From the IMG/VR virus record IMGVR_UViG_3300030107_002341, positions 1-26,018 of that record: DNA of 26,018 nt; one strand, given 5' to 3'. Below are positions 3,904 to 25,935 of the stretch, piece by piece (the stretch's first letter is position 1; each line of letters starts with the position of its first letter). Made by a program: the position numbers and the translations under genes. Source of the DNA: a virus. Under the pieces are notes generated by a model. The model was given only the letters and a program-made list of their open reading frames with translations. It searched no databases and was not told the DNA's origin.

Positions 3904-4037
3904 GAAAACTTAAAAAACAAGTAATGCTTTGTGGACATAAAGAATACTATATTAAGAGTGATAAACCAGATGATATATGCTTGAAATGCGAAAAGACTCT
4001 TAAAAGAAAAGTAAGGAGGTATTACTATGCCAAGTAA
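3900..4037 (+). CDS. Zinc-finger-like basic microprotein (45 aa)
   Basis: The 45 residues have C11-x-H13 and C27-x2-C30, a possible CHCC zinc site, in a Lys/Arg-rich protein. It starts within an ATGA overlap with the membrane peptide and ends 11 bases into the following nuclease gene. Its last codons contain the near-perfect ribosome binding site of that gene (4012-4020). Confidence 0.6.
   Translation: MRKLKKQVMLCGHKEYYIKSDKPDDICLKCEKTLKRKVRRYYYAK
4012..4020 (+). promoter_or_regulatory. Near-consensus Shine-Dalgarno of the small nuclease gene
   Basis: TAAGGAGGT is a nine-base match to the complement of the 16S rRNA 3' end, six bases before the ATG at 4027. It is the strongest ribosome binding site seen in the window. 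It indicates that the host uses SD-led initiation, at least for phage messages. Confidence 0.8.
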
Positions 4038-4999: not shown

Positions 5000-5660
5000 T
5001 ATATACAATGAGAATTGTATGGATACTATGGGGAAGATGGAAGATAAATCCATTGACCTTATAATAACAGATCCACCTTATGGTATGAGTTTTAGAAGTA
5101 ATCATAGAGCAAAAAAATATGACGAGATATATTGGGATGACAATTTAGATTGGGTTGATGACTGGTCTTCCGAGTGCTACAGGGTTTTAAAAGATAATAC
5201 TAATATATATGTATTTTGCTCCTATCATAACGTAGATATATTTAAACAATCTCTTCAACGAGATTTTGCGATTAAGAATATATTGATATGGGAAAAGAAC
5301 AATACAAGTATGGGCGATTTAAAGGGCGATTATGCCCCTAAATATGAAATGATATTGTTTGCTTGTAAAGGAAGAAGAATACTAAATGGTGGACGAGACC
5401 CTAATATATTTACATTTGCAAGAACAGGTAACAAGTTGCACCCAACCCAAAAACCAGTTGAGCTTATATCGTATCTTATTGGTAAAAGTTCAAATGAGGG
5501 CGATGTAGTGTATGACCCTTTTATGGGTTCTGGAACTACGGCTGAAGCAGCTTATATTGATAACAGAAAATGCGTAGGTTCGGAAATAAATGATGCTTAT
5601 TATGAGGTATCGCTTACAAGGATTGAGCGCGTAGAAAGGCAGGGTAAAATATTTGTATAG
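4971..5660 (+). CDS. Orphan beta-class DNA (adenine-N6) methyltransferase
   Basis: S-adenosylmethionine-dependent DNA methyltransferase of the N6/N4 family (PF01555 type). Catalytic motif IV is DPPY (34-37). LHPTQKPVELISYLI (157-171) is motif X, and the SAM-binding motif I follows as DPFMGSGTT (182-190). Motif IV before motif I defines the beta class. DPPY favours adenine-N6 over cytosine-N4, which usually has SPPY. The start is TTG with AGGA seven bases upstream. No restriction endonuclease is nearby, so it is an orphan enzyme, plausibly protecting phage DNA from host restriction or timing replication or packaging. At 229 residues the target-recognition region between the motifs is short. 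Confidence 0.93.
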   Translation: MTESHQKSISIYNENCMDTMGKMEDKSIDLIITDPPYGMSFRSNHRAKKYDEIYWDDNLDWVDDWSSECYRVLKDNTNIYVFCSYHNVDIFKQSLQRDFAIKNILIWEKNNTSMGDLKGDYAPKYEMILFACKGRRILNGGRDPNIFTFARTGNKLHPTQKPVELISYLIGKSSNEGDVVYDPFMGSGTTAEAAYIDNRKCVGSEINDAYYEVSLTRIERVERQGKIFV

Positions 5661-6996
5661 TGAATCAACAGAAAAAGCTTTACTTGGTTCAATAATGATA
5701 AGACCAGAAACTTTAGAGTTGGCTCAAAAGTGGATAGAGGAACCAAATGTTTTTTATAGTGATTTTCATAAAAATATATGGAACACCATACTATCTCTTA
5801 ACGATCGTGGAGAACATATAGATATGGTAACTGTTGCTCATAACTATCCACAGAAAAATAGCATTAAAAAAGATATTGCTTACGAAATAACAACAATAGG
5901 TACTGGCGAAGCTACACCGTCGAAAGCTGAATATTACGCTAAGATGCTTCACGGATATTGGCTTAGGCGAGAGCTTGGCGATTACTCTAAGAAACTAGGT
6001 ATGCTAACAGAAGACAACTCAAATGATATAAGCGACCTTCTTAATGAATCGCATACTCTTATAGGTAATCTTATAAAGCTACAACCATCTAAAGAGTTTG
6101 ATATGGCTGAGCTACTATTAGAAACACAAGAATCTATATTCAGTAGAAAAACCAATATAAAAACAGGTATACCTAAATTTGATAAGGTAATATCTGGGAT
6201 GACAAGAGGTGAGATAACTATTGTAGCTGGAAGACCTGCTAATGGCAAGACAACTGTAGCTGCAAACATAGCAAGAAACCTGGTTATGAGTGGACACAAA
6301 GTGGTTATGTTTAATCGTGAGATGCCTAATACTGAGATGATGAAAAAGTTTATTGCGATGGAAGGAGATACTATTTCATATAGAAACTTAAGGCACGGAA
6401 TACCATCAAGTAAAACAAAAGTACACGAAGCGATGGATTTTATACACAAAAACTACACAGATAAGCTATTTATGTTTGATGATATAAGAACATTGTCGGA
6501 CACGTTTCACGAGATAAAGAATGTTAAGCCAGACGTTGTGATAGATGACCATATAGGATTAATAGAGTACTCACCTAACGACAGAAGAGATTTAAGACAT
6601 AAGATTGGGGAAACAACCAAGCAATACAAATGGCTTGCAAAATCAGAAGATATGTGCGTTATGCTTGTATCACAATTAAATAGAAATATTGAATACCGAA
6701 TAGACGCTGTGCCAAGATTGTCGGACTTAGCTGAGTCTGGTAACTTAGAACAAGATGCCGAGATAGTAGCGTTTACACACTATCCTTATATATCAAGATA
6801 CGGAGAAGAAGATTCAAATGGTAGGATATGGACTGAGAATGAATTACAATTAGTGGTATGTAAAAACAGGTACGGAACTACTGGATCAGTTGAAATAGGA
6901 TATTCTGGTGATAGCTGTAAGTTATTTGATGACCTTGGCTCAGCTATGAATCACGAAACAGAAAAGAAACAACTAGAAATGGAGGAGTTAGGATGA
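5653..6996 (+). CDS. DnaB-like replicative DNA helicase
   Basis: Hexameric 5'-3' replicative helicase. Residues 1-110 match the DnaB N-terminal helical domain (STEKALLGSIM near the start). The RecA-like domain has Walker A GRPANGKT (193-200), the catalytic glutamate in FNREMPN (E223), Walker B VVIDDH (295-300) and the sensor-like LVSQLNR. The later PRLSDLAESGNLEQDAE stretch is the family's conserved loop region. 447 residues is normal. Start is TTG, overlapping the methyltransferase end by eight bases. No primase or loader gene is seen in the window, so the phage either uses the host's or encodes them elsewhere. Confidence 0.95.
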   Translation: MYSESTEKALLGSIMIRPETLELAQKWIEEPNVFYSDFHKNIWNTILSLNDRGEHIDMVTVAHNYPQKNSIKKDIAYEITTIGTGEATPSKAEYYAKMLHGYWLRRELGDYSKKLGMLTEDNSNDISDLLNESHTLIGNLIKLQPSKEFDMAELLLETQESIFSRKTNIKTGIPKFDKVISGMTRGEITIVAGRPANGKTTVAANIARNLVMSGHKVVMFNREMPNTEMMKKFIAMEGDTISYRNLRHGIPSSKTKVHEAMDFIHKNYTDKLFMFDDIRTLSDTFHEIKNVKPDVVIDDHIGLIEYSPNDRRDLRHKIGETTKQYKWLAKSEDMCVMLVSQLNRNIEYRIDAVPRLSDLAESGNLEQDAEIVAFTHYPYISRYGEEDSNGRIWTENELQLVVCKNRYGTTGSVEIGYSGDSCKLFDDLGSAMNHETEKKQLEMEELG

Positions 6997-7199: not shown

Positions 7200-7389
7200 A
7201 AACGTCAAGAAACCTTTATGTGATTATAAAGATTGCGATAACGTAGCTCTTTATGAGTTTACTGATATTGTTAAAGTAGACCCAAAGTCTTTTCCTACTA
7301 AAACTATAAGCCTAGGAACTTCCTGTGAGAAACATTTAGATAAATTAAGAAAAAAATTCGATACCGACAAGAAAGATTTAAATGCATAG
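7180..7389 (+). CDS. Putative zinc-binding protein (69 aa)
   Basis: C14-x4-C19 with a later C49-x2-H52 (TSCEKH) makes a plausible CCCH zinc site in a compact, mostly beta domain of about 55 residues, followed by a basic tail. It overlaps both neighbours by 20 and 8 bases. A second in-frame ATG at 7189 is possible. Similar Cys/His knuckles occur in many small phage proteins without known role. Confidence 0.6.
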   Translation: MKTMHIRNVKKPLCDYKDCDNVALYEFTDIVKVDPKSFPTKTISLGTSCEKHLDKLRKKFDTDKKDLNA

Positions 7390-7648
7390 AGATCACCCCT
7401 ATCTAAGAGCACATGAAAGATGGAAAAGCTATACTCGGTGGTGGTTTTCTTATTGTAAACCTCGGTTAAAGCCATCTCCCTACAGTCAAGAGGGTGCTTA
7501 TATTACGTTATCCACAGATATTGCGCCAAGCAGTAGTAGGGTTAGGCAGACTAAAAGACCCAACCTTGATTGGTACGATAAATTCTATGACGGATATGGG
7601 AGTTACGATAAAATAAAAAACATGATTGACCATATGGAGACTATATGA
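7382..7648 (+). CDS. Hypothetical aromatic-rich protein (88 aa)
   Basis: 88 residues with many Trp, Tyr, Arg and His (HERWKSYTRWWFSYCKPRLK near the N-terminus; NLDWYDKFYDGYGSYDK near the C-terminus). No known motif. It has no clear ribosome binding site and probably depends on translation of the overlapped upstream gene; its stop overlaps the bS21 start by four bases. Confidence 0.6.
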   Translation: MHRDHPYLRAHERWKSYTRWWFSYCKPRLKPSPYSQEGAYITLSTDIAPSSSRVRQTKRPNLDWYDKFYDGYGSYDKIKNMIDHMETI

Positions 7649-7875
7649 AATTAGAAACTTTTCAAGCGAAGCCTATAGAAGTATCGAAAAAGAAAAATGA
7701 AAGCGTACAACGGCTAATTTCGCGCTTTAAAAAGGCATTTAGTAATAGTGGGATTATTGAAGAATTAAAGGAAAGAAGATTTTACGAAAAGAAATCTGAA
7801 AGAAAGAGGCGGGAAAAGAAGAAAACCCGCCTCCGTATGAAGAGACAGCTGAGAGAAGATAGAAAATCTTTTTAA
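7645..7875 (+). CDS. rpsU: Phage-encoded ribosomal protein bS21 homologue
   Basis: A 76-residue homologue of small-subunit protein bS21, the last gene of the rightward unit. The diagnostic core is present: KKNESVQRLISRFKKAF (16-32), SGIIEELKERRFYEKKSERK (35-54), matching the family's N-E-x2-x3-L-x-RFK and RRxFYEKPSxRKR pattern. A Lys/Arg tail of about 20 residues follows. bS21 sits near the 16S rRNA 3' end and affects initiation, so the protein may enter host ribosomes and favour phage messages. GGAG lies upstream of the ATG. Its 3' part also encodes, antisense, the likely late terminator. Phage bS21 genes are known from aquatic phages. Confidence 0.87.
   Translation: MKLETFQAKPIEVSKKKNESVQRLISRFKKAFSNSGIIEELKERRFYEKKSERKRREKKKTRLRMKRQLREDRKSF
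7798..7833 (-). terminator. Likely intrinsic terminator of the leftward late operon, inside the bS21 gene
   Basis: On the minus strand GAGGCGGG and CCCGCCTC form a perfect 8-bp GC-rich stem (7826-7833 with 7806-7813) around a 12-base pyrimidine loop, followed by TTTCTTTC. It lies about 40 bases beyond the last late stop codon. On the plus strand the same hairpin has no T-run, so it should act mainly on leftward transcripts. Confidence 0.65.
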
Positions 7876-8607
7876 TTATCTTGTAATGTTTTCTGGTAAT
7901 TTATATAAATCTTCCTCTCTTTGTTTCATAGCTTGACGTAATAAATTCTCAACCCAATTATATTGTAAAATCTCTTTTTCTGGTTTATCAAACTTTTTTT
8001 GATGAGTATCTAATTTTCCCATCTGTTCAAGCGTTGACCCTGGCTTTGCTCCAGCGTGAATGCTTTCATGGATTAACGATCTTAAGGGCAATCTTTTCTC
8101 CATAGAAGATTTATTTCCAAATATAGCTATTGTATCTGGTGTTGCACCCGTTTCACTTTTTTCATAATAACCTGACATTGCTCCAGTTTTTGAGCCTGGA
8201 TACCCCTCCTCTGTTCTGTAAGCTACTAAACCTCCAGGCTTATCCATAAGATTGTACTTGTCTAGTATTCTCTCTATAAGGAATTTACCTTCTCTGCGTC
8301 TATTAAAGTCAGCTGTCATCCCAAGTAGTTCTCCTAAAGATTGCTCTGCAAGTTTCTTTTGAGGGCCAAGAACTCCACTTCTCGAAGAAGTAAGAATCTC
8401 CGTCATAGCATCTCTCAACTTTAACATATCCATAGGAATTCCCTTGGATACAGTTTTACCAACCCTAATATCAACTGGGTCTCCATATCTTTCAGACATT
8501 GGAATTAAAAAATCTGCTATAGATTTTGCTGATGGACTTGTCTTAGTAGAGACTGCTTTCGCAGACTGAGTTCTTGGTTTAAATTTATATTTATTCTTCG
8601 GTGGCAT
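7876..8607 (-). CDS. Putative HExxH zinc metalloprotease, late gene
   Basis: Last gene of the leftward unit, 243 residues. LRSLIHESIHAG contains HESIH (180-184), the zincin metallopeptidase signature: two zinc-binding His and the catalytic Glu, preceded by hydrophobic residues as expected. A third ligand could be one of the glutamates around 209-220 (KPEKEILQYNWVE). The N-terminal 30 residues are basic and Ser/Thr-rich, starting MPPKNK, very like the start of the gene upstream (MPPKSK). The location after internal virion proteins suggests it may be packaged and ejected. A prohead or lysis protease is an alternative. Fold assignment depends on a short motif. Confidence 0.6.
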   Translation of the reverse strand: MPPKNKYKFKPRTQSAKAVSTKTSPSAKSIADFLIPMSERYGDPVDIRVGKTVSKGIPMDMLKLRDAMTEILTSSRSGVLGPQKKLAEQSLGELLGMTADFNRRREGKFLIERILDKYNLMDKPGGLVAYRTEEGYPGSKTGAMSGYYEKSETGATPDTIAIFGNKSSMEKRLPLRSLIHESIHAGAKPGSTLEQMGKLDTHQKKFDKPEKEILQYNWVENLLRQAMKQREEDLYKLPENITR

Positions 8608-10370: not shown

Positions 10371-13300
10371 TTATGGATTTGCCTCTTCCTTTAGCTTCCT
10401 TATTTTCCATACCATATATGAAGCAAAGTTTACATCTTCAAATAGTAATGGATTGCTTGGTCTTTTGCTATTCCATTCGTTGAATAGGCTAGATGCTTGA
10501 GAGTATTTCTTATCCTCGTAATGTTTAAAAATCTTACTTCTTATTTTTCCTTTATCTACCGATATCCCTTTTTCTTTTTGACCAGGAGTTTCAACTCTTT
10601 TAGCTGCTTGTCCTACAAAACCACCAAAGATAGAGGCGTAACCTTTTATACTTCTTTGATACGTATCCCAATCTCCAGCTCCATATTTCTCAATGTTGCT
10701 TGATAGTGCTTGTGTACCAGCGTATGCCTTTTCAAGATCGGATAAAACTACAGGCGTTAAAAAGAATTTAACAGAAGATAATTTATCTTCGGCTTCAAGT
10801 ATATCAGAAAAGAAACCCATAGAACCAACAACGCCAAATGCCTCAATAAGCTTATCCCAGCCTTCTTTATCTTCTCGAACTACATCTTCACCACTTAAAA
10901 ACTTAACAAGCTTGTCTTTAGCCCACATTACAAAGCTAGCACCGAACATTCCTCCAGCTGCCATTCTTAATGGAGCAAATACATTACCAGATGATATTTC
11001 TCTTTTTAGTGTATCTTTAGCGTACTTAGCCTGTCTATAACCAAATCTTTTAAAGATAAAAAATGGTCTCAATTTTGGGTTGTTAAACGCTAGAGGGTCT
11101 TTAAGAATATCTTTTTGTAGTTGACTTTCTTTAGCAAACCTATACATAGCATTTTCTATTTTAGTATTACCTAAAGAAGCTTTACTAAAATCAGATACAC
11201 CTAATCTAGTTAAATTTCTTGTTGCCCAGTTATACCGACTTGATCCTTTTTTAGATGTTTTTGTAGTCTTGTATAAATCTTTAACATAGACTTCAGCTGT
11301 AGATGCAGCAAGCATTTGGTTCATCAAATTTATTAATTTAAATCCAGTAAGCGTGGTAAGTAAATTAGCAGTATTGGCGAGCCTAGTTCCTTTTTCAGTA
11401 GCTATTTTTTTAATACCTTCTTTTATACTTCTAGGATTTGACAATCCCATGTCAGTACCAAGAACCATATCCATTACATTATGATGTCTAGCTCCAGATT
11501 GCCTTATCCTTTTCCTTACATCTTTATCAAAAAGTCTAAACGCACCTCTAAGCGTTCTCCAATAACCAGCTTCAACAGCTGTAGATATTAAAGTTTGTGT
11601 GATGTTTGGAATAGTTGCAAAACCAAGACCTATTTTAGTTCCATACTCAAATGACATAATACCCTCGGCAAGCTTTCTAGCCGTTGGAGACATTTGTTTC
11701 GCTGGGTCTACACTAGATAATCCTGTAAAGTTACCATATAATTCTTTTAATACTTTATATTCAGCTGGGTCTTTAATCCTTAGCATATCAAGTAATACTT
11801 TTGCTTTCTCACCTTTTTTCCCAAAGACCTCTGCCGTTGCCATTCTTTTTCCAAACTTATCAAAATACCTTGCAATAATTTCCGTTGCATTTCTTTCATA
11901 AAATTCAGTTGGAAGTTTTAATTTTCTTTTCTTTTCTAAGTTTCCAAACGGAGAATACATTTCGCCAAAGACTTCTTCTCTTAATGACTCCATCGCATCC
12001 TTATAACTAAGCTTACCCTCTTTTACAAGTTTATTAAGAGCTTTATTTGTTGTATTAGAAAAGTCTCCAGCGGATATTGCTCTTTCTACAATCCTATTAA
12101 GTAATTCTAAATCTCTTTTGCTGTATACTTTCTTTTCAAGAAACGCTTTATTTTTATCCATAAACGGCATCAAGTCGTCAAAGATAATTTTTTGAATATC
12201 TTTTCTCATCATACGAGGAAAGTATCCTTCTATATAACCAGCGATATCTATGCCAGCTTTTTCAGCCATTTTATATGCTGCGTCAAGCTGTATTTTAATC
12301 TTATCAGCTATCACCTTAGCTTCTCTGCTTACGCCTTTCTTTCCTTCAAGCGCATCAGCAACTTCTTTTGGATTTTTAAATTTGAAAAGACCGCTTTCTC
12401 TAATAGCTTTTTCTACGAATGTTCCAGTAATTTCTTTTGCTTTTGCATCAGCCTTTGGAATCCATTCAAGACCAAGTGTTTGCGACTCTCTTTGCTTAAG
12501 CCTTGCTTCAGCCGAAAGCATTGGTTGTACCCATTTTTCTGGAAATATTTTTTCAACTAAAGTTTTACCTGGTTGTATCTCTAGAAGCTTTGGCCCAATT
12601 TGCTTTTTTAAATCAACCAAATCTCTTTCATATTGAAGGGACTTTCTATATTTAAAAAGCTCTAAAGGAGTCATATCCTTAGTACTTTTATCTTTTTTGC
12701 CAGTAATATTCTTTTTTGTTTCCGATAAAAACTTATTATTAAACCCATACTGTTCAGTGGTAAGCTTCTTACTTAAACCCGCTACTTCCTGAACTCTTTT
12801 CTTCTTAAGGGCTTCTGGTGACATTCCTTCTTTATATAGATCAAATTCTTTGAAGAACTCTGCTTTGCCAAGTGATATGGTTTTCTTTTTCTTAGTGTCA
12901 ACGCTTCTTACTCTAAAAACATTTAACCCTTTACCAGTCTCACCCTCACCAACTATTTCAGCTTTTTCAAATCCTTTTCTTTCAGATGTCCATACCTGTC
13001 CTTCGCGCTCACCTTTTTCACGAAGCTTTAATTCTCTCTCAGCGTACTCTTTTATAAATTCTGGAGATGCTTCTTTCGCTTGAACTTGAGGTTGTATTAT
13101 TGGCTCACCTCTTTTAATTCTTCCAGGAACTTTAAGTGCCATATTTGCACCACGAATACCAAGAATCATTCCACCAGCGTGAACAAAGTCTTGTGGTGTT
13201 GGAACCCTAAGGTCAAGTGCTGGTTCTAATGTACCAAAAGCTGCTATTTCTTGCGCCACTCTAACTGCTTCACTCGAACCTTTAAAAGCTGCTCTACCTC

Positions 13301-13952
13301 CTATACCACCAGTAACACCACCTAATATAGCTCCTTTACCCGCAGCTTCAATTACTTGTCCAAAATCTATATTATTATCATTTATTTCTTGAGACATCGC
13401 ATCTGCTATACCGCTATAAGCTCCAAGTGCTACAGCCCCTGTTCCAGCAGATACACCAGCTCTACCAGCAAGAGTTTTCATTCCTTTTTCTAGGGTTTCT
13501 TCAGCAAAATCTTTTTTAACGCCAGATCGTATCATCTGTCTTAATGCTAATTTACCAGCTTTTTTTGCAGCTACACCGCCTACACCAGCGCCACCAGCAA
13601 ATACAGCAATATCAGCGGGCATAAAAAAGCTTATTACACCAGCACCTATATCACCAAGGACACTTGGGTCGTAATCTTCTAAATCGAATGGAGCTTCACC
13701 AGTAGCTATTTGCTGAGCCATTCCTGTTATAGATTCGTTATAACCCTTTTTAATGAAATCTGGTATATAATCCCATAAAGCAGAACCACTGGCTTTTTGC
13801 CTTTGTTCATAATCAACAAAAATATTATAAAAACCTTCTTCCGCAGATGAATAATAAGCCCCAGTATCCTGGTCTTGACCAAACGTTCTAAGAGATGCTA
13901 TTTCATCTTCGCTAGTATCTGAAAAAATATTATAAAATTTTTCATCAGGCAT
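10371..13952 (-). CDS. Giant internal virion / ejection protein (1193 aa)
   Basis: Largest gene in the window. The N-terminus repeats a short motif (FYNIFSD at 7-13, FYNIFVD at 41-47). Gly/Ala-rich hydrophobic segments lie at 100-130, 168-185 and 205-222, a pattern typical of phage ejection proteins that enter the host envelope. The middle (about 280-800) is charged and helical and includes GYIEGYFPRMM near 572-582, a phrase I associate with large phage internal/polyvalent proteins. The C-terminal third has more apolar segments (IGLGFATIPNITQTLISTAV; PLRMAAGGMFGASFVMWAK). Likely role: forming or lining the DNA ejection channel. No lytic transglycosylase catalytic motif was recognised. Assignment is by context and composition. 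Confidence 0.65.
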   Translation of the reverse strand: MPDEKFYNIFSDTSEDEIASLRTFGQDQDTGAYYSSAEEGFYNIFVDYEQRQKASGSALWDYIPDFIKKGYNESITGMAQQIATGEAPFDLEDYDPSVLGDIGAGVISFFMPADIAVFAGGAGVGGVAAKKAGKLALRQMIRSGVKKDFAEETLEKGMKTLAGRAGVSAGTGAVALGAYSGIADAMSQEINDNNIDFGQVIEAAGKGAILGGVTGGIGGRAAFKGSSEAVRVAQEIAAFGTLEPALDLRVPTPQDFVHAGGMILGIRGANMALKVPGRIKRGEPIIQPQVQAKEASPEFIKEYAERELKLREKGEREGQVWTSERKGFEKAEIVGEGETGKGLNVFRVRSVDTKKKKTISLGKAEFFKEFDLYKEGMSPEALKKKRVQEVAGLSKKLTTEQYGFNNKFLSETKKNITGKKDKSTKDMTPLELFKYRKSLQYERDLVDLKKQIGPKLLEIQPGKTLVEKIFPEKWVQPMLSAEARLKQRESQTLGLEWIPKADAKAKEITGTFVEKAIRESGLFKFKNPKEVADALEGKKGVSREAKVIADKIKIQLDAAYKMAEKAGIDIAGYIEGYFPRMMRKDIQKIIFDDLMPFMDKNKAFLEKKVYSKRDLELLNRIVERAISAGDFSNTTNKALNKLVKEGKLSYKDAMESLREEVFGEMYSPFGNLEKKRKLKLPTEFYERNATEIIARYFDKFGKRMATAEVFGKKGEKAKVLLDMLRIKDPAEYKVLKELYGNFTGLSSVDPAKQMSPTARKLAEGIMSFEYGTKIGLGFATIPNITQTLISTAVEAGYWRTLRGAFRLFDKDVRKRIRQSGARHHNVMDMVLGTDMGLSNPRSIKEGIKKIATEKGTRLANTANLLTTLTGFKLINLMNQMLAASTAEVYVKDLYKTTKTSKKGSSRYNWATRNLTRLGVSDFSKASLGNTKIENAMYRFAKESQLQKDILKDPLAFNNPKLRPFFIFKRFGYRQAKYAKDTLKREISSGNVFAPLRMAAGGMFGASFVMWAKDKLVKFLSGEDVVREDKEGWDKLIEAFGVVGSMGFFSDILEAEDKLSSVKFFLTPVVLSDLEKAYAGTQALSSNIEKYGAGDWDTYQRSIKGYASIFGGFVGQAAKRVETPGQKEKGISVDKGKIRSKIFKHYEDKKYSQASSLFNEWNSKRPSNPLLFEDVNFASYMVWKIRKLKEEANP

Positions 13953-23859: not shown

Positions 23860-25935
23860 TTACTTTACTAACCACATTTCAATATTATTTCCTTCATCTC
23901 TCATCTTTATCCAAGTTGAAGCAACTGGTTGACCTTTACGCAATCTTAGTTTTCCCATCAACCCAACAGCAGACCATTCTTGTCTAGCTTCCCTCATAGT
24001 ATAAGATTGTGATGGGTCGTATTCGTCTGAATACTGACCTTCTAAGCGAGTAATATATTCAGCGTTATCTGGTATTTCTAAATCTTCTGGTAAATCAGAT
24101 ACTTTCCAATTTTTTTCTTTTTTAACAACTTCTGCACCTTCTTCTGATTGAAAGTCATATTCCCAGCGTACCCATTCAACTTCTTTAGGTATTTTTCTGC
24201 CCCATTTATCTTTTTTCCAAGTACCATGCCAACCCATTGGATTATCTCCAACTACTGCTGGAGTGCCTGAAATAATACCAATAGGAGTTTCTCCTTCGGT
24301 AGCCTTTCTAATTTTATCACCATCAAGAACAACTGAATAACCAACTCTATCTTCATTATCAGGATTTCCATCAGTCCATTCAAAGTATTCTGCATAGTCA
24401 TAACCTGTTATTGAAGTTGAGCCGTCTGAGTGTAAATCACCCTCTGTATCAACTATGAAAATAGTTTGCATACTGCCACCTTTTTGACACCTAACAGAAA
24501 ATATAGATTCATCAGAACCTACATTGGTAATTCCAGTACCACTAACTTCATAAGCCATATTCTGTATTGCACACTTGTCTACACCTGTACCTCCTGATGG
24601 GGCTGCATAATAATTACCAAATGCTTGTAGAGCCACTGGTCTTTCGTGAGTTGTCACACCACCTATTATAAGGCCTCCTTGAGTAGCACTATATTTTTTC
24701 ATAAAACCATAAGTGTCTGTTTCTGCATAACTTGTAACGCCATGAGTAATATCACTTGATTTAAGTGCTAAAATTTGGTCATCATTTGCACCTTGATTTA
24801 TTGTAAGACCTAGGGTAACGTCTGCATTTGCACTATCGTTAATAAATACATTTCCATCAGCTGCAATACGCATTCTTTCACCTAAAGCACTACCAGTATG
24901 AGTTCTAAATGATAAAGCTGTGGCTGCTCCTGTTGATGTTGCGATAGCTTCAATACCAGCAACTTCTGTTCCAGAGTGATGTGGTGCAAACTTTATTTTA
25001 CAAGATGTTCCTATTGCTGTTGATGAGCCAGGATCATTTGTAAGTTGCAATACTGGCCCAAGACCACCATTATTTACTTTGCTAACATCAAACATTTCTA
25101 ATGGTGCAGTAGTTCCTATACCAACTGCTCCAGTTGATTTTATAGTCATGTGGGTTGATGAGTAACCTGCAGTTGCACCACCTGCTCTAACTCCAAACTC
25201 CAATGAATCTCTTGAATCAGAAAATCTCATAGCACCACTTACTATGTCATCATCATCGTTTGCCCAAGCAGAACCAGTATAGTATTCATTAAAAGCTACA
25301 GTACCATTTTCAATGCCTGTTCTACTGTATATTCTATAATCAGCAAAATCTCCACCAATGTGCAATTTTTCAGAAGGTGAGCTTTCTCCTATACCAACAT
25401 TTCCATCATGGTCTATTCTAACTGCTTCATCTAAGGTTTCATCATCCTGACTTACCTTAAAAGCTATTCCAGTTGAACTGTCTGTATCATCACCACTTTC
25501 TCTTGTTGCTACAATAGCAGAGCCCTTTTTAGATGTGGTAGTTTCATAAGCAGTTTTAAATAATATTCCTACATTATCACCTGCTCCTAAATCTGCGCCA
25601 CTTGCTTCTGTGCCGACTATATTTAATAAAAAGTTATCACCACTTGAAGCTGATATTGCTTTTGTAATTGTCCCAGTTCCCGTCAAAGAAAAAGCTGGGC
25701 TAGATGTATTAACTGTAAATACAGCAGTACCATCTGCTTGCGATACTTCAAACGCATTTGCATCATTAGACCCAGGTATTATTTCTATTTTATTTGTTGC
25801 CACCTTCATACCAATAGCCGTACTTGAATCACCATCGGTAATAGCGACTAAATTATTTCCGTTCAATCCACCGCTAGGTAAGGCTAACAGCCTATCGTAC
25901 GTTGAAGCAATCGTTGAACCTGATAAATCTGCCAT
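23860..25935 (-). CDS. Tail appendage/spike with Peptidase_G2-type self-cleaving C-terminus (691 aa)
   Basis: Host-contact structural protein. The first 500 residues contain beta-rich repeat phrases common in phage fibres and spikes (GNVGIGESSPSEKLHI, GAVGIGTTAPLEMFDV, a weaker GNVFIND). Residues from about 510 match the Peptidase_G2 (phi29 gp12-like) autoproteolytic module: DYAEYFEW with D513 and E516, TDGNPDNEDRVGY, VLDGDKIRKA and IGIISGTPAVVG. In phi29 gp12 cleavage occurs just before the Asp of this motif after trimer folding. By analogy about 179 residues would be removed here. GAGGA lies ahead of the ATG. The residue before D513 is Tyr rather than the Ser of phi29. Confidence 0.82.
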   Translation of the reverse strand: MADLSGSTIASTYDRLLALPSGGLNGNNLVAITDGDSSTAIGMKVATNKIEIIPGSNDANAFEVSQADGTAVFTVNTSSPAFSLTGTGTITKAISASSGDNFLLNIVGTEASGADLGAGDNVGILFKTAYETTTSKKGSAIVATRESGDDTDSSTGIAFKVSQDDETLDEAVRIDHDGNVGIGESSPSEKLHIGGDFADYRIYSRTGIENGTVAFNEYYTGSAWANDDDDIVSGAMRFSDSRDSLEFGVRAGGATAGYSSTHMTIKSTGAVGIGTTAPLEMFDVSKVNNGGLGPVLQLTNDPGSSTAIGTSCKIKFAPHHSGTEVAGIEAIATSTGAATALSFRTHTGSALGERMRIAADGNVFINDSANADVTLGLTINQGANDDQILALKSSDITHGVTSYAETDTYGFMKKYSATQGGLIIGGVTTHERPVALQAFGNYYAAPSGGTGVDKCAIQNMAYEVSGTGITNVGSDESIFSVRCQKGGSMQTIFIVDTEGDLHSDGSTSITGYDYAEYFEWTDGNPDNEDRVGYSVVLDGDKIRKATEGETPIGIISGTPAVVGDNPMGWHGTWKKDKWGRKIPKEVEWVRWEYDFQSEEGAEVVKKEKNWKVSDLPEDLEIPDNAEYITRLEGQYSDEYDPSQSYTMREARQEWSAVGLMGKLRLRKGQPVASTWIKMRDEGNNIEMWLVK

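Follow-up and report, generated by a model that had tools for sequence, protein, structure and literature searches.

The presence of a ribosomal protein gene at the end of a phage replication operon raises the question of what such a protein does in the infected cell. The DNA analysed here (the window, 26,018 nt) is a 26-kb IMG/VR fragment, classed as linear, from a virus of bacteria. A preliminary description of it recognized a bS21 gene and suggested that the viral protein replaces host bS21 to change initiation preference, which would be striking if the host hides its anti-Shine-Dalgarno (anti-SD) sequence. Of the ribosomal proteins that viruses carry, bS21 is the commonest, and both its replacement of the host protein and an altered initiation preference are published hypotheses (Mizuno 2019, PMC6375957; Chen et al. 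2022, PMC9723584). Phage bS21 is already known from aquatic phages; the present gene is a further case, from another group of phages and with other neighbouring genes.

The product of the 76-codon open reading frame matches the PF01165 profile with E=3.8e-12 and 46.2 bits (cut-off 27) over profile positions 2–54 of 55, and it holds the core sequence quoted in the preliminary description. It also matches PHROG 21469, ‘ribosomal protein S21’, and PDB bS21 chains in sequence searches. Structure prediction bears out the assignment. The AlphaFold model (pLDDT 82) shows the bS21 helices, at residues 21–35, 37–45 and 50–75, and all six PDB matches found with it by Foldseek are bS21 chains or ribosome entries. 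Probabilities for the top three are 0.97–0.99; the E-values are weak, 0.04 at best, as one would expect of a fold this small. The modelled protein is basic and mostly helical with a long C-terminal helix, as is typical of the family. By profile and predicted fold, this is a genuine bS21; neither finding that the preliminary description named as refuting it, a missing S21 profile match or a fold lacking the two basic helices, was obtained. The protein had also been credited with a longer basic tail, which is not the case: from YEK to the end the tail has 30 residues, compared with 34 in Escherichia coli, 31 in a Poribacteria bS21 and 20 in Bacillus subtilis. The added length is N-terminal and consists of 10 residues ahead of the core; this extension is kept in all six close family members. 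The gene is under purifying selection, with dN/dS values of 0.10–0.25. These are higher than those of DnaB, partly because dS is low in bS21. Coordinates of the features discussed are listed in Table 1.

Table 1. Features of the bS21 locus and its surroundings (window positions)
Feature	Position	Strand	Remarks
Strong SD TAAGGAGGT	4012..4020	+	6 nt before ATG 4027
DnaB-like replicative helicase	5653..6996	+	bS21 within ~1 kb downstream throughout the clade
Small ORF 5′ of bS21	7382..7648	+	overlaps bS21 by 4 nt; related gene in G004 only
bS21 gene	7645..7875	+	76 aa, pI 10.9; PF01165, PHROG 21469 and PDB matches
N-terminal extension MKLET[FL]QAKP	7645..7674	+	codons 1–10; very low synonymous change
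T-rich tail TTTCTTTC	7798..7805	-	directly after the hairpin on the minus strand
Hairpin antisense in bS21 codons: GAGGCGGG / 12-nt loop / CCCGCCTC	7806..7833	-	fold, conservation
Leu codon 63, aligned with F. johnsoniae Tyr54	7831..7833	+	alignment A11
Late-operon last gene	7876..8607	-	stop at the base adjoining the bS21 end
Large internal virion protein gene	10371..13952	-	late operon; weak T7-type PHROG matches

Replication genes occupy the plus strand, encoding a PD-(D/E)XK exonuclease, a methyltransferase and DnaB, and structural genes on the minus strand converge on bS21. The gene had been placed at the end of the early operon. It is indeed the last plus-strand gene and meets the structural operon head-on; the word ‘early’ is a reading of gene content and orientation, which suggest early expression of the bS21 operon. 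The start of bS21 and the stop of the gene before it share 4 nt (ATGA), an arrangement that suggests translational coupling of the two genes. Gene order is kept in five close relatives, whose bS21 proteins are 77–85% identical, as well as in L021. The 46.7-kb relative, G001, additionally carries terminase, portal and capsid genes. In the same genome (L122:794-3827) a predicted amidoligase (PHROG 2443) adjoins an ORF beginning MCGLFGFAKREG, which by eye resembles a class II glutamine amidotransferase. The minus strand of the window encodes a long tail-fibre-like protein at 23860-25935, the C-terminal part of which matches PHROG 4775 (pre-neck appendage).

The distribution of the gene was followed in 80 DnaB relatives from IMG/VR, with bS21 sought downstream of DnaB by profile search. 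It is found next to DnaB in 26 of the 28 evaluable loci where DnaB is at least 58% identical to that of the window, and in none of the 46 evaluable loci below 58%; some loci are near-copies, so that these counts are not independent events, and in L259 and L276 the sequence breaks off at DnaB. The profile search found no bS21 downstream of DnaB in L265 and L266 (DnaB 62%). There are two changes of bS21 state on the DnaB tree, most parsimoniously a single gain and a single loss. A tree constrained to unite the carriers in a clade that leaves out L265 and L266 is rejected, as is predicted by loss in these two loci. bS21 is thus probably a clade-level trait, gained once and kept, of one uncultivated and probably podovirus-like phage group. 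Two forms of the protein occur, the long form of the window and a short form of 58 aa (YTKPSQLRRERE). An 80-kb contig (IMGVR_UViG_3300030708_000851) has two different DnaB-bS21 loci, L269 and L277, about 45 kb apart; it represents either two joined phages or an assembly artefact.

A tblastn search with the window bS21 against 50,697 phage records gave no match at E<=0.01. The Pelagibacter phage HTVC008M resembles the present phages in having a bS21 of similar size and in being an aquatic lytic phage, but it is a 147-kb myovirus (PMC6375957). Freshwater phages infecting Bacteroidetes also have a conserved bS21 in a conserved gene neighbourhood; however, their gene lies among late structural genes and the protein has an aromatic residue at the position of Tyr54 (Chen et al. 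2022, PMC9723584). In the window family bS21 is not located with structural genes but closes the replication operon after DnaB, the residue is Leu, and SDs are used. The window adds a group of phages whose bS21 gene belongs to the replication operon instead of lying among late genes.

The preliminary description pointed to strong SD sites, and the example it gave, TAAGGAGGT, is exactly where it was placed; SD sites exceed chance in the window and in the family. A strong SD was defined as anti-SD pairing at -6 kcal/mol or better, and one mechanical ORF caller was used for all genomes. In seven family contigs strong SDs precede 31% of the starts of early genes and 39% of those of late genes, compared with 8% of internal ATGs; the values for the window alone are 28% and 8%. 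Among reference phages, T7 has 64%, HTVC008M 20%, and Flavobacterium phages 11b and 6H 0%. Sister phages without bS21 downstream of DnaB reach 34%, and the carriers 26% (long form) and 21% (short form). Genes upstream of bS21 within its own operon already carry SDs. SD use in this phage lineage is independent of bS21, because early genes and bS21-free sister phages use SDs too, and both observations speak against a bS21-induced shift towards SD reading. Sister phages with and without the gene thus provide a natural comparison, which indicates that SD use is not driven by viral bS21.

A bS21 tree had been proposed as a means of identifying the host lineage. The tree obtained (71 columns) is compatible with Poribacteria, and the family falls within no bacterial phylum. 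AU tests reject neither grouping with Poribacteria (p=0.48) nor with Bacteroidota (0.32) or Patescibacteria (0.15). A first genome scan with the close-family bS21 gave no match; a broader alignment then found bacterial bS21s. The closest bacterial sequence found, with 52% identity over 57 residues, is from the marine Poribacteria MAG L098 and is without the N-terminal extension; it may point to a Poribacteria host, a link with which the tree is compatible without being decisive. The bS21 of one Bacteroidota subclade is nearly as close, and the subclade itself is without SD use. Of the bacteria whose bS21s are similar, the sample of the Poribacteria phylum uses SDs (47% vs 14%) and the sampled Bacteroidota do not, where the phylum labels derive from the L098 title for Poribacteria and from bS21 sequences for Bacteroidota (one of which, G011, is titled Saccharospirillaceae). 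The Poribacteria genomes searched hold no close phage DNA, only short DNA matches mostly in the methyltransferase region, and the phage TerL finds at most 34% identity there. A search with DnaB of 395 Bacteroidota genomes gave no match at E<=1e-60. An SD-using host is favoured and Bacteroidota are disfavoured. The MAG titled Saccharospirillaceae (L105 / G011) has a Bacteroidota-type bS21 and a phylum sample that is Bacteroidota-like, and is probably misnamed or contaminated.

The reading that we consider the most probable, although far from assured, is that this bona fide phage bS21, the last gene of the replication operon, enters the host 30S subunit and supports or retunes initiation in an SD-reading host. 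The protein would be expressed with the replication genes and would replace or add to host bS21; 30S subunits containing it would then act on the mRNA of the phage, in a host with ribosomes that would already read SD sequences. Incorporation, the effect on initiation and the SD-using host are what we infer. There are good grounds for thinking that a viral bS21 can enter the host 30S subunit, and a direct precedent: the bS21 of pelagiphage HTVC008M enters E. coli 70S ribosomes (PMC6375957). E. coli ribosomes with viral bS21 have only about 5% activity in vitro (PMC6375957), and therefore inhibition instead of support is possible. Taken further, this finding would mean that the viral protein chiefly shuts down translation in the host, or poisons initiation of the host type, instead of supporting that of the phage; the position of the gene in the replication operon, the place for genes of host take-over, is in keeping with this. 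However, the activity was measured with ribosomes of a foreign host, a lytic phage depends on host ribosomes all through infection, and the bS21 core is conserved; we consider such a role quite improbable. It is rather unlikely, too, that a host-like bS21 serves for dosage only, topping up or repairing 30S subunits with mRNA selection unchanged. Among ribosomal proteins bS21 is one that exchanges readily (PMC6375957), its core and predicted fold show nothing unusual here, and SD use by the phages is independent of it, but the conserved, family-specific N-terminal extension belongs to that half of the molecule which comes closest to the mRNA, and suggests something beyond a mere duplicate of the host protein.

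More tempting is a host of Bacteroidota type that occludes its anti-SD, in which a bS21 without Tyr54 would make SD-reading ribosomes and SD-bearing phage mRNAs would win. In Bacteroidia, Tyr54 of bS21 stacks on A1534 and redirects the 16S tail, and F. johnsoniae ribosomes with the Y54A or deltaC change gain SD reading (PMC9976891). The phage uses SDs and has Leu, not an aromatic residue, at position 63; the Bacteroidota subclade with a near-closest bS21 does not use SDs, and the AU test leaves a grouping with Bacteroidota standing. Nevertheless, this scenario appears very improbable. All seven long-form phages in alignment A11 have Leu63, and Tyr or His occurs in only 2 of 45 aligned phage and bacterial bS21s; a non-aromatic residue is ordinary outside Bacteroidia. 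The family thus shows neither the aromatic residue of anti-SD-sequestering Bacteroidia bS21s nor their disregard of SDs, with strong SDs at 31–39% of starts. SDs are already on early genes, their use is at least as high in bS21-free sister phages, known Flavobacterium phages are without strong SDs, and the known Bacteroidetes phage bS21 retains the aromatic residue (PMC9723584). The F. johnsoniae bS21 (PDB 7jil; PMC9976891), which has the sequestering Tyr54, belongs to the same family and has the same helical plan, but of all matched PDB bS21s it is the poorest match to the phage profile (17.4 bits). The prospect of a host that hides its anti-SD, raised in the preliminary description, is undercut by this poor match, by the 0% of phages 11b and 6H and by the lack of SD use in the Bacteroidota with the nearest bS21. 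The evidence is against the idea that bS21 lets the phage unlock SD-ignoring host ribosomes. This sets an appealing story right and provides a means of probing the real role of phage bS21.

A hairpin embedded in the gene shows that phage bS21 genes may be constrained at more than the protein level. Read on the minus strand, the second half of the gene contains a stem of -17.3 kcal/mol (z -4.2), located 43–70 nt beyond the late-operon stop. The stem is kept in six of seven long-form sequences, and four of its pairs have changes on both sides, exceeding both shuffles and slid controls. At one pair in G004 and G005, a G.U arises only in the minus-strand RNA. A G+C-rich stem followed by a T-rich tail shortly past the last gene is the arrangement of an intrinsic terminator, and the hairpin is probably the terminator of the convergent late operon.

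Synonymous change is also reduced. Codon differences at conserved residues reach 44–47% of saturation in bS21, the lowest of the genes compared, and ~80% in DnaB. In the long form the lowest values are in codons 1–32, with a lesser dip in codons 49–68, which hold the hairpin. In the window itself the first 32 codons (7645-7740) have synonymous change far below that of DnaB windows. No convincing overlapping ORF was found behind the synonymous conservation in bS21, and an Rfam search of the window gave no match. A candidate start-codon helix in the 5′ third of the gene was rejected, as it shows no covariation and two pairs are broken in G002.

The short form has a different near-invariant stretch, 60 nt in bS21 codons 31–52, with almost no synonymous change. 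It contains invariant CCCTCC and AGGAGGGAG blocks, and its tail is often not T-rich. Since the middle of the short-form gene is near synonymous saturation, recent exchange of the whole gene is an unlikely cause of the low dS there; such exchange is possible in the long form. A conserved nucleic-acid element in the second-half bS21 codons, at the junction of the early and late operons, is well supported. That it couples bS21 expression to late transcription, or acts as an autoregulatory mimic, is a speculative and unlikely proposal. The short-form stretch is present in L268-L282 and L317 (e.g. L278:5776-5834) and reads GAGCTGGAAGAGCG ... CCCTCCCARCTYAGGAGGGAGAGAG.
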